Below the pieces are notes generated by a model. It did no database searches. It saw only the letters and a program-made list of their open reading frames with translations, and was not told where the DNA came from. Positions 46,908 to 51,084 of a DNA stretch of 64,000 nt are shown here, in pieces; within the stretch, counting starts at the first letter, position 1; every line of letters starts with the position of its first letter. The DNA lies in the NCBI RefSeq assembly GCF_001940165.2, contig NZ_CP135162.1, forward strand, positions 485,501-549,500, given 5' to 3'. A program made the translations under genes and the position numbers. Source of the stretch: Roseburia sp. 831b (GTDB lineage: Bacteria > Bacillota > Clostridia > Lachnospirales > Lachnospiraceae).

Positions 46908-47017
46908 ACACTCCATTATCTAGTATAATATATTTTGTGTTACAAGTCTATACTTTTTTTCAGATTCTGTTAGAATAAGAAGAGTCGACAGCGGGATGTG
47001 GGAAAAGGAGAATGCAA

Positions 47018-50000
47018 ATGAATGAATTACCTGGAATCACAAGAGAAGACGAAGAAAAAAGACTGGCGTATGTCATTGACATTGCGCAAAAGAATCTGGA
47101 ACGGAATCAGCAAGGGGTTGCGAAATTAAAGCAAGACTTGCACGAATTGTTGGAAACCTATGGAGCAAAGGACGTTGAGGCGTTATCCATGTGGAACAAC
47201 ACGGTGGTTTTGTTAGAGGAGACTAAGACCGACCTGGTTCGAAGCGAGAAGGCAAGGAAGAAACCGTATTTTGGAAGAATTGATTTTACCGATGAGACGT
47301 TAAAAAAGAAGGAATCCTATTACATAGGAAGAGTTGGAATCGCAAAGGATATTACGAATCTTGAGGTAATCGACTGGCGTGCACCAATCGCAACGGTTTA
47401 TTATGAAAATGCGCTCGGTCCTTGCAAGTACAGCGTGAAGAACGAGGGAACGTATCAGATTGATTTATCCAGAAAAAGAACGTATGAGATTGAACAGGAT
47501 ACGTTAAAAGATTTTTACGATTCGGATGTTGTCGCAAATGACGAACTTTTAACAAAGTATTTAGCAAAAAATAAAAAAGCGGTACTTGGTGAAATTATTG
47601 CGACCATTCAACAGGAACAAAATACCATTATCCGAAAATCCCCGAAACAAAATATTATCGTGCAAGGTGTTGCGGGTTCTGGAAAGACGACCGTTGCCAT
47701 GCACCGGATTTCCTATATTTTGTATAACTATGAAGAGGAGTACCGGCCAGAAGATTTTTATATCGTGGGCAGTAACCGCATTTTACTAAATTATATCACC
47801 AGTGTTTTGCCGGATTTAGATGTCTATGGAATCAGGCAGATGACGATGGAGCAGCTTTTTACCAGACTTTTATATGAAGACTGGGATGAGGTCTCGATGA
47901 AAATCAGGCACCTTGAAAAAGGTGATATGACGGCGGCCGAAAAAGGAAGCTTTTCCTGGTTTCATGATTTGGAAAAATTCTGTAACGAGCTGGAATGGGA
48001 AACGATTCCAAGAGAAGATATTGTCATCAACCGCGCAGAATATGGTATTCACGCGGCCGAAAATAAGAAACGGAAATTAGTCCAAAAGCAGGTCCTTTTG
48101 TCAAAAGAAGCCATTGAAACCTATCTTAAGGAAAATCCGCAGGTTTCCATGCAAAATAAGATTTTAATGCTCAATGAGCGTCTTATGGCAAAGGTGCAAA
48201 ATGAAATCATGGGAAAAGAGATTGGCTACATGCCGGAGGATAAAAAAGAAATTCAAAAACAGTTTCGCTTTTTCTTTGGACCGAAGTTGTGGAAGGGTTC
48301 TATTTTTGAATTATACGAAGACTTTTTAAATTTACAGGATGTCCGTGGAAAAGTGGTTCCCTATGTAAAAAATGAGTTTGATGTCTATGATTTAGCAGCG
48401 CTTGCTTACCTCTATAAAAGAATCAAGGAGACGGAAGAGGTCAGGGAAGCCAGCCATGTCGTCATTGATGAGGCGCAGGACTTTGGCATGATGGCGTATG
48501 CAGTTTTGAAATACTGTATGCGTGTGGGATGCACGTTTACCATCATGGGTGATGTATCCCAGAACATCAGTTTTGGCTACGGTTTAAATGACTGGGAAGA
48601 GTTAAAAGAGCATTTTTTAACCGGAACCTATGACAGTTTCAATCTGTTAAAGAAAAGCTATCGAAACACAATTGAAATATCCGATTTTGCCACGAATATT
48701 TTAAAACACGGAACCTTTCCAATTTATCCGGTTGAACCGATTTTGCGTCATGGCAACTCTGTGCGTATTGAGCAATGCGAGGATGACGCAGAATTAGAAA
48801 AAGAGGTCGCGGCCGCCATTCGAAAATGGCAGAAAAAGGGCTTGGAAACGATTGCGGTAATCTGCCGGGACGAAAAAGAGGCGACAGCGGTCGCAAAGAG
48901 ATTGAAAAAGAAAGTGAAACTGCTTGACAGCAACCTGGAAACTACGGAATTTAGCAGCGGAGTCATGGTGCTTCCGGTCACTTACACCAAGGGATTAGAG
49001 TTTGATGCGGTCATTCTTTATGACCCGGATGAAGAAAAATATCCATCGGATAACGGTCATGTAAAACTTTTGTATGTAGCGGCAACACGAGCGCTTCATG
49101 AACTCGCAATCTTCCACAAAGGAAACTTAACTGGAATCATCAGAGATCCGGTTCCAGAGGGAAGACGTGTCGAGATGCTGCCGGAGGAGACGAAGCGTCC
49201 AGAAAAGAAGGAAGACAAGAAAGCATCCAAACAAGAAAGTGCTTCTAAATTATTGGATGCAGATGGCAAAAAAGCTTTGGAAAGAGCGCAAAAACCGCGC
49301 ACCGAGGTTGGCCCACGAAAGATTGAACTTTCCGACTGCCAGAAGATACAAAAATCACAAAAGGTAGAAATGGTTCGCCCAGGAGGAGCGAAAACTTCTG
49401 CCAAAAACCAGGAACTTTTGAAAAAACGAAGAGAAGAGCAGGCAAAAAAAGCAGCTGTAAAGAACAATAGCATTACGGCAAAAACAGGAAGCCCACAGGA
49501 AGAAGAGAAAAATCTATCTCCATACAAGTTCGGTGATATTCCAGATCAGAGCAAACTTCGCCCGATGGGGCACAGCAAAGCAGATTGCGCAATTCGCTGG
49601 GGCAAAAAGGCAAAAGATTATGTGGATTTGGCAAGTGCTTATGGAACGCTTCGCATCACACCGGTTACGCCGGAAATTGTCCGTATCAGTTTTCAAAAAT
49701 CACAGTTAGCGGAGTTCTCGGATTGTAAGAGCATTGCACTTTTGCAAGGAAGTGTGAAATGGAATTTCAAAGAGTCGAAGGATGCGTTTGAGCTTGCGAC
49801 AGAGAAACTTCTTGTGCGTGTGGAAAAGAAAGTCGGAGCAGTGCAGTTTTTTACAAGAGATGGAAAGAAACTTCTGTCCGAAAATGCCAAAGAACCAAGA
49901 CTGTTAGGCCAGGGCATGAAAAATCAAAGCTATGTCTTTTTTGACTGGGAAAAGAATGAAAAGCTTTGGGCGAAAGGTCTTTTAGACGATGATTTAATCA

Positions 50001-50248
50001 AGATGAATCTTTCTGCAAAATATATTTCTTACGGGAACCGTGCGCTGCGTCTGCCATGCCTGCTATCGGAAAAAGGATATGGACTCACATTCGCTGCAAA
50101 AGATGCGGTGATGTGCTGTGATATTTCGGTATATGGAACCTATGTGATGACAGAGGAGATGCCACAGACCGATTACTATTTCATGTACGGCGGTAGTGCA
50201 GGAGCATCCAGAGAACTTTACAAGCTTTTAACGGGGAAAATAAAATGA
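47018..50248 (+). CDS. HelD-family UvrD-like helicase with GH31-like C-terminal domain
   Basis: 1076 residues from the ATG at 47018, 7 bases after AAGGAG (the ATG at 47012 is too close). A coiled-coil N-terminus is followed by a HelD block ('VIDWRAPIATVYY'), Walker A 'GVAGSGKTTVAMHR' near residue 218, the DEAQ Walker B ('VIDEAQDFGMM'), and 2A/2B domains to about residue 705. HelD removes stalled RNA polymerase. A Lys/Gln-rich linker (about 710-830) then joins a beta-rich C-terminal domain (835-1076). 'DLASAYGTLRITPVTPEIV' and the end 'YYFMYGGSAGASRELYKLL' look like the N-terminal domain of GH31 alpha-glucosidases, without the catalytic barrel. The next gene overlaps it by 4 bp. Confidence 0.8.
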   Translation: MNELPGITREDEEKRLAYVIDIAQKNLERNQQGVAKLKQDLHELLETYGAKDVEALSMWNNTVVLLEETKTDLVRSEKARKKPYFGRIDFTDETLKKKESYYIGRVGIAKDITNLEVIDWRAPIATVYYENALGPCKYSVKNEGTYQIDLSRKRTYEIEQDTLKDFYDSDVVANDELLTKYLAKNKKAVLGEIIATIQQEQNTIIRKSPKQNIIVQGVAGSGKTTVAMHRISYILYNYEEEYRPEDFYIVGSNRILLNYITSVLPDLDVYGIRQMTMEQLFTRLLYEDWDEVSMKIRHLEKGDMTAAEKGSFSWFHDLEKFCNELEWETIPREDIVINRAEYGIHAAENKKRKLVQKQVLLSKEAIETYLKENPQVSMQNKILMLNERLMAKVQNEIMGKEIGYMPEDKKEIQKQFRFFFGPKLWKGSIFELYEDFLNLQDVRGKVVPYVKNEFDVYDLAALAYLYKRIKETEEVREASHVVIDEAQDFGMMAYAVLKYCMRVGCTFTIMGDVSQNISFGYGLNDWEELKEHFLTGTYDSFNLLKKSYRNTIEISDFATNILKHGTFPIYPVEPILRHGNSVRIEQCEDDAELEKEVAAAIRKWQKKGLETIAVICRDEKEATAVAKRLKKKVKLLDSNLETTEFSSGVMVLPVTYTKGLEFDAVILYDPDEEKYPSDNGHVKLLYVAATRALHELAIFHKGNLTGIIRDPVPEGRRVEMLPEETKRPEKKEDKKASKQESASKLLDADGKKALERAQKPRTEVGPRKIELSDCQKIQKSQKVEMVRPGGAKTSAKNQELLKKRREEQAKKAAVKNNSITAKTGSPQEEEKNLSPYKFGDIPDQSKLRPMGHSKADCAIRWGKKAKDYVDLASAYGTLRITPVTPEIVRISFQKSQLAEFSDCKSIALLQGSVKWNFKESKDAFELATEKLLVRVEKKVGAVQFFTRDGKKLLSENAKEPRLLGQGMKNQSYVFFDWEKNEKLWAKGLLDDDLIKMNLSAKYISYGNRALRLPCLLSEKGYGLTFAAKDAVMCCDISVYGTYVMTEEMPQTDYYFMYGGSAGASRELYKLLTGKIK

Positions 50249-51084
50249 CAAATATAGTTAAAATAACAGATTATAATGCAGCAGAATTGGATATTTATGC
50301 AAGAAAAAAGGAAAGCCAGCTGTTGCATTACTATGAACCAAAGCAGGGAATTTTTATTGCGGAGAGCCCGATTGTAATTACAAGGGCTCTCGATGCGGGA
50401 TATGAGCCACTTTCTTTTCTTGTTGATGAGGCAGAACTAAAAACAGAGATGGCGGCGGCGCTTCTTTCGCGCTGCCCGGATACTTTGGTCTATACCGCAG
50501 AAGCATCCATTTTAAAACAGATAACCGGATTTGAACTGACAAGGGGAATGCTTTGTGCGATGCATCGAAGAGAGCTTCCTTCTGTGGAGGAGGTTTGTGC
50601 TAATGCAAAAAGGATTGCGGTGCTAGAGGATGTCGTAAATCCAACCAATATCGGTGCAATTTTCCGCTCTGCAGCAGCACTCAATATGGATGCGGTATTG
50701 TTGACACCGGCATGCAGTGACCCGCTGTATCGCCGGGCAATCCGTGTCAGTATGGGAACAATTTTTCAGGTGCCATGGACTTATTTTTCCAGGAAGGAGA
50801 CAGTCTGGCCGGCAGAGGGAATGGATGAACTGCACCGACTTGGTTTTAAGACGGTGGCGATGGCGCTCCGGGACGATTCTTATAGTATTGATGATCCAAG
50901 GCTTCATGCGGAGGATAAGCTGGCGGTTATTCTTGGAACAGAAGGAGACGGTCTTTCTAACGATACGATTGCAGACTGTGATTATACAGTAAAAATTCCG
51001 ATGACACATGGAGTAGATTCCTTAAATGTTGCAGCGGCAAGTGCGGTGGCATTCTGGGAGCTGGGTAGAAGCGGAAAAAGATAA
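50245..51084 (+). CDS. SpoU/TrmH-family RNA methyltransferase
   Basis: 279 residues overlapping the HelD-type gene by 4 bp (ATGA). The SPOUT knot is clear: 'VVNPTNIGAIFRSAAALN', then 'AVILGTEGDGLSNDTIADC' and 'IPMTHGVDSLNVAAASAV'. An N-terminal substrate-binding domain precedes it. Such enzymes methylate the 2'-O of rRNA or tRNA ribose; the target nucleotide is unknown. The translational coupling to a HelD-type helicase is suggestive of a shared RNA role, but may be accidental. Confidence 0.9.
   Translation: MTNIVKITDYNAAELDIYARKKESQLLHYYEPKQGIFIAESPIVITRALDAGYEPLSFLVDEAELKTEMAAALLSRCPDTLVYTAEASILKQITGFELTRGMLCAMHRRELPSVEEVCANAKRIAVLEDVVNPTNIGAIFRSAAALNMDAVLLTPACSDPLYRRAIRVSMGTIFQVPWTYFSRKETVWPAEGMDELHRLGFKTVAMALRDDSYSIDDPRLHAEDKLAVILGTEGDGLSNDTIADCDYTVKIPMTHGVDSLNVAAASAVAFWELGRSGKR

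Follow-up and report, generated by a model that had tools for sequence, protein, structure and literature searches.

A HelD-family protein of gut Lachnospiraceae bears a GH31-type N-terminal β-sandwich, possibly exapted as a basic docking module

The 64,000-nucleotide stretch of Roseburia sp. 831b DNA analysed here (the window) carries on its forward strand a gene for a 1078-residue protein (47012..50248, TGA stop 50246-50248; 1076 residues if translation starts at 47018 instead of 47012). Residues 1-712 (47012..49147) comprise, by homology, the arms and the 1A and 2A motor domains of a HelD-family RNA polymerase recycling factor, and unfused relatives terminate near the position of residue 712. 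In the full-length model, a predicted long helical hairpin at residues 11-83 (47042..47260), with helices at 11-49 and 55-83, corresponds to the HelD secondary-channel arm, a role published for B. subtilis HelD (PMC7749165). The Walker A motif GVAGSGKTT occupies residues 219-227 (47666..47692). A charged linker follows (residues 713-829, 49148..49498) that is predicted to be disordered, with pLDDT below 50 at residues 719-802 and 808-830. The C-terminal tail has near its start a conserved motif, [FY]GxxPxxxxLxxxGH (residues 840-854, 49529..49573), followed by a β-sandwich of the type found at the N-terminus of GH31 glycoside hydrolases (residues 859-1078, 49586..50245, assigned by homology and fold), the first strand of which has the conserved basic pattern RxxKKxK (residues 862-868, 49595..49615). 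The sequence-only reading, which had described HelD joined through a charged linker to a GH31 N-domain that lacks its barrel, is thus correct in its domain assignment: the parts lie in a single frame, and both fold and homology matches support them.

The HelD core matches the B. subtilis HelD profile (HelD_BACSU, NF041464) with 355.4 bits (E 5e-106) and the B. subtilis HelD structure 6wvk with E 2e-70. The equivalog cut-off of NF041464, 419 bits, is not reached; judged by these sequence scores, the fused protein is a member of the HelD family that stands outside the HelD_BACSU equivalog. Homology to class I HelD, of which the B. subtilis recycling motor is the reference, extends across the motor domains and the arms, and the long coiled-coil secondary-channel arm typical of class I is recognized by predicted helices only. 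The ATPase motifs are kept: Walker A, DExQD, GDxxQ, SYR[NS], KGLEFD and DWRxP are present in 59/59 fused proteins, and AxTRA in 58. With one arm in the secondary channel of RNA polymerase and the other in the main channel, HelD frees the enzyme from nucleic acid (PMC7749165, PMC7749167). B. subtilis HelD terminates with domain 2A at residue 774 (PMC7749167) and has neither linker nor sandwich, whereas the fused proteins have both. The class survey of HelD distinguishes large variants of ~740-850 residues from small ones of 680-720, a difference accounted for by the arms (PMC8655204). The window genome also encodes a second, plain HelD (L034, G000:C1:1665388-1667418) that is 32% identical to the fused one, and a plain copy accompanies the fused protein in at least five other genomes.

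The tail shares the β-sandwich over nearly its whole length with the N-domains of GH31 α-xylosidase, α-glucosidase and dextranase (PF13802; 6jr6, 5jov, 7kmp), and its predicted fold is the sandwich of these domains. The PF13802 profile, to which the sequence-only reading had looked for confirmation together with a predicted structure, gives a divided answer: the fold agrees, whereas the score of 24.2 bits lies under the Pfam gathering score of 27 bits. Even so, the window tail is the best of 13 tails compared, seven of which match PF13802 at E ≤0.1. The GH31 barrel with its catalytic residues (PF01055) is absent from the Pfam list of the protein up to E 1, and the protein stops where the (β/α)8 barrel would begin. 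In GH31 enzymes, the catalytic site sits in the barrel domain (PMC9061262). None of the 29 helicase-bearing proteins found by searching with the tail has PF13802 among its precomputed domains, and annotation by Pfam cut-off conceals the tail.

That search returned 32 proteins in all, 29 with HelD/UvrD-type helicase domains (33-97% identity) and three GH31 enzymes. One of the 29 (P0019), in which an ABC transporter runs into the middle part of a fused HelD within one contig, is probably a metagenome chimera. Across 299 Lachnospiraceae genomes, the tail profile at E 1e-15 matched 32, of which 24 are of the fused type and eight of the GH31 type; the proposed survey of HelD homologues in the family therefore found the same fusion again. 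HelD sequence adjoins the tail in 23 of the 24 genomes. In G048, the copy is split across two contigs and only the last 29 HelD residues adjoin the tail; in G006 the contig runs out in the linker. The matches in G118 and G250 were flagged with internal stops, yet their frames hold both HelD and tail, and the matches probably run beyond the stop. In the genus of the window, for which many of the 40 genomes are incomplete, the fused type occurs in 13 and an unfused relative from that subfamily in four. Among 291 Clostridia and 249 phylum-level genomes, the fused type was found only in the window's own; 12 other class-search matches at E 1e-10 scored no higher than 104 bits, whereas fused proteins score 136.8 bits or more, and HelD was seen at none of these 12 loci.

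A scan of named genomes with two peptide patterns located at least 32 loci, a lower bound given the method, in organisms that include Oliverpabstia, Fusicatenibacter, Mediterraneibacter and Eubacterium plexicaudatum. At 31 of these 32 loci the HelD frame is longer than 700 residues; at the other one a frameshift breaks it. Intact frames occur in Oliverpabstia intestinalis (L131), Fusicatenibacter saccharivorans (L134), Mediterraneibacter glycyrrhizinilyticus (L139) and M. catenae (L145). The fusion is thus confirmed as real and as kept in dozens of gut-bacterial species. An assembly or gene-calling artefact, which could appeal to a few chimeric or broken single sequences (P0019; frameshifts in L103 and L138), is ruled out for practical purposes by the many independent genomes, named strains included, in which the gene is one intact frame. 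The two frameshifts differ in position: in G149 (L103) HelD and tail fall into different frames, and in Eubacterium plexicaudatum ASF492 (L138) the shift lies inside HelD. Either may reflect a sequencing error or gene decay. As for mobile elements, spread by plasmids was rejected because the five plasmid matches have only 23-26% identity and are annotated as TIM-barrel proteins. Spread by phages was rejected as well: one of the two matches in phage collections is an unverified faecal scaffold labelled Bacteriophage sp. (MT836747.1), which resembles bacterial DNA. A complete fused HelD gene (L163, 982-4215) lies on this scaffold next to genes that resemble ABC transporters, and the record appears to be mislabelled bacterial sequence.

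In a tree of 86 HelD cores, with linker and tail removed, the 59 fused proteins lie on one side of a single branch (SH-aLRT 99) and the 27 unfused ones all fall outside it. The tree omits the duplicates L035, L039, L041, L046, L127, L130, L133 and L134 and the frameshift-split L138, and counts L103 as fused despite its two frames; its long branches (L029, L030, L032) are all unfused. The nearest unfused relatives (L016, L017) stop after domain 2A, and the frameshifted G149 copy is the only case of tail loss seen within the fused clade. A second tree, of sandwiches from 22 of 56 fused rows and 18 GH31 enzymes (long branches L001, L002, L107 and L011), nests the tails of the fused proteins among clostridial GH31 enzymes. 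Their closest GH31 relatives (L108, L109) come from another family of the class, and the joint group has an SH-aLRT of 99, which suggests the parental GH31 subfamily. Both trees are quick ones with SH-aLRT as the only support. On these trees the fusion is a single event in an ancestor within the Lachnospiraceae, with a clostridial GH31 donor. Recombination with a GH31 gene, offered earlier as the alternative to a functional fusion, therefore holds as the origin of the gene and fails as a local accident, because a single old event is shared by many species.

The tail is under purifying selection. Its dN/dS is 0.06-0.24 in the 10 of 12 close pairs for which it could be computed, as compared with 0.04-0.21 for the core (12/12 pairs); the tail value is the higher in six of the ten pairs and the lower in four. 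Some of these comparisons are saturated (dS > 1.5), and that of the L009-L015 tails spans 61 codons only. The linker is looser than the tail (0.16-0.83 in 9/12 pairs). Its median length is 103 residues in 56 fused rows, and its net charge, +11 in the window protein, is positive in 51 of them and zero or negative in five. A G[PA][KR]xI motif (window residues ~767-771) recurs in 26 of the 56 otherwise variable linkers. A functionless fossil of gene fusion, carried along as a tolerated passenger, might be expected from the faster divergence of the tail than of the core between genera (32-46% tail identity to the window in 12 other proteins, ~53-67% for the core in fused rows) and from the G149 frameshift that parts the two. 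The low dN/dS of the tail, its retention throughout the fused clade outside G149 and its lineage-specific conserved residues argue against this explanation, which is very improbable.

The conserved residues were counted in 56 of the 59 fused rows (L015 and L027, whose tails are cut by the end of the stretch, and L103 were excluded) and in 16 of 29 collected GH31 entries. The latter set leaves out duplicates (L078, L079, L084, L085, L096, L097), a fragment (L083), a broken entry (L088), three entries for which charge was not computed (L091, L093, L095) and the two distant GH31 proteins of the window genome (L001, L002), which have net charges of -15 and -10. Six residues that form a GH31 signature (GxG, G, R and QxN) are all present in 15/16 GH31 rows, whereas no more than two remain in 55/56 fused rows. 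The loss is located in a remodelled region (residues 984-1013, 49961..50050) that also gained K988, K1003 and R1013 and that we take to face the active site in GH31 enzymes. Many other conserved GH31 N-domain residues are still present in the fused tails. New features include the [FY]GxxPxxxxL motif ahead of the sandwich, S1006, G1008, R1013 and C1036. Within the motif, F/Y840 is present in 56/56 fused rows, P844 and L849 in 55 each, G853 in 40 and H854 in 37; positions 840 and 844 each fall in a gap in 13/16 GH31 rows.

The tail also differs in charge from the mostly acidic GH31 N-domains. The net charge of the sandwich is +3 to +13 in 56/56 fused rows, as compared with -18 to +1 in the 16 GH31 rows, and Lys or Arg occupies positions 862, 865, 866 and 868 in 75-93% of the fused rows but in 0, 6, 38 and 0% of the GH31 rows. 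Since all fused proteins stem from one event, this contrast represents one evolutionary change rather than 56. Nevertheless, 17 fused rows that are less than 50% identical to one another retain a charge of +3 to +11, and this persistence argues for selection. In these divergent rows, 12 basic positions were gained and three lost; one gained position, 1001, is Ser in the window protein. Acidic residues were also gained, at six positions, of which 872, 927, 978 and 994 belong to the sandwich. Overall composition does not account for the basic tail, since the HelD cores of these proteins are acidic (net -36 to -10). Taken together, the lost signature and the basic charge point to a polyanion or RNA polymerase rather than a sugar as the likely ligand, even though net charge alone is no proof of nucleic-acid binding.

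In the window, the fused gene is situated between a pair of ABC permease genes and an α-amylase gene with a starch-binding module, a setting that the sequence-only reading had taken as a hint of sugar sensing. This clue does not survive comparison: among 20 loci (14 fused, six unfused), no two have an immediate neighbour in common, and the commonest neighbour cluster within five genes is found at eight. Pfam assignments for 10 upstream and nine downstream neighbours, drawn from 31 loci, are mostly of genes unrelated to sugar, such as those for a topoisomerase, an ion channel, a sigma factor, an acetyltransferase and an aminotransferase; the exceptions are a single glycoside hydrolase and two HAD hydrolases. 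As the neighbours differ across loci, the sugar setting is incidental. A converging downstream frame of 627-633 residues occurs at nine of the 31 loci (L139, L140, L145 and six more), all of the Mediterraneibacter group, and the three such frames scanned are P-type ATPases; within this one clade the setting is conserved. Downstream in the window, a SpoU/TrmH-family rRNA methylase gene (50245..51084, forward strand; PF00588 112.9 bits) overlaps the fused-gene stop by four bases, which suggests translational coupling in this genome. The methylase may be co-translated with the fused gene here; it lies outside any conserved unit, no member of its family being found among the 19 neighbours annotated in other genomes.

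HAD hydrolases, a family that includes sugar phosphatases, recur near fused HelD in some relatives. P0020, P0023 and P0024 combine a HAD hydrolase at the HelD N-terminus with the GH31 tail, and in L131 (1830-2477) and L133 (1903-2547) a separate HAD gene lies 73 or 27 bases upstream.

In B. subtilis, HelD acts together with the delta subunit, the acidic disordered tail of which competes with DNA in the main channel (PMC7749165). No member of the delta family (PF05066) was found in 15 genomes, 11 fused and four unfused, while the B. subtilis control matched; nor does the HARE-HTH domain (PF05066) appear in the Pfam list of the fused protein. Delta (RpoE) offers a possible functional parallel only, as a folded domain with a disordered charged stretch that aids HelD. 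It has no sequence match to the tail, and its own tail is acidic (PMC7749165), whereas linker and tail of the fused protein are basic; the tail is thus not a delta mimic. As no delta was found in the four unfused genomes either (G096, G115, G003, G024), its absence alone does not explain the fusion.

From these observations we infer, with a probability of roughly 0.5, that the sandwich was exapted as a tethered basic docking module on the HelD recycling motor, where it would hold nucleic acid or an acidic surface of RNA polymerase. A clostridial GH31 N-terminal sandwich was joined, by way of a flexible linker, to the C-terminal end of an ancestral HelD; it then lost the GH31 signature while acquiring the new motif ahead of it and some dozen conserved positions with basic residues. 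Computation shows the fusion, its predicted fold and single origin on the tree, the selection, the lost signature, the shift in charge and the lack of a delta-family match in 15 genomes, whereas binding to nucleic acid or polymerase and any help to recycling are inferred. Tethered by the linker, the basic domain may come into contact with nucleic acid that is on the polymerase or emerging from it, or with an acidic polymerase face. The nucleic acid held could be downstream DNA or released RNA, bound while the HelD arms open the polymerase. By aiding binding or release, the sandwich might take on a helper job in bacteria where no delta was found.

The nearest rival is pure protein docking, in which the sandwich binds RNA polymerase, a sigma factor, the ribosome or another factor and so positions or restrains HelD. 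It is possible, if doubtful. The conserved N-terminal motif would suit it, as would the acidic HelD core, onto which the basic tail could fold back, and in a GH31 hexamer the N-domain sheet touches a neighbouring protomer (PMC9061262). However, shared gene neighbours indicate no partner, and the absence of a parental-type GH31 at E 1e-15 from the 24 fused genomes makes co-assembly with the parent unlikely. Co-assembly was accordingly rejected: beyond the split copy in G048, these genomes hold no further match at that threshold, although with eight GH31-type and 24 fused genomes among 299, zero overlap is also expected by chance.

It is less likely still, and on balance improbable, that the sandwich senses a sugar or sugar phosphate and ties nutrient state to the recycling or storage of RNA polymerase. 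Its descent from a carbohydrate enzyme would fit such a role, as would the permease and amylase genes around the window gene, the HAD hydrolases fused or just upstream in some relatives and the GH120-type glycoside hydrolase gene downstream in L131. In one GH31, moreover, an N-domain tyrosine that is not strictly conserved hydrogen-bonds the sugar in the site of the neighbouring protomer (PMC9061262). The catalytic barrel is absent here, however, and the lost GH31 signature and the varying gene setting, with no immediate neighbour in common across 20 loci, make a sensor less likely than docking on nucleic acid or polymerase.

HelD has been described as arms plus motor, and a common gut Lachnospiraceae clade adds to these a third, foreign domain that is under selection. 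Searches within an open-access library found no title or abstract that describes HelD with a GH31 tail, and the class survey, which puts length variants down to the arms, uses neither "fusion" nor "fused" (PMC8655204). The protein presents a clean, testable case of enzyme-domain exaptation, with one event on the tree and the nearest GH31 subfamily identified. It also prompts one to ask which factor helps HelD in genomes that yield no delta match. That a sugar-enzyme domain was converted to a nucleic-acid-binding subdomain, and made HelD self-sufficient in gut bacteria without delta, is a tentative answer that we would sooner doubt than adopt. If docking on nucleic acid or polymerase is correct, a carbohydrate-enzyme fold would have been turned into a part of the transcription machine.
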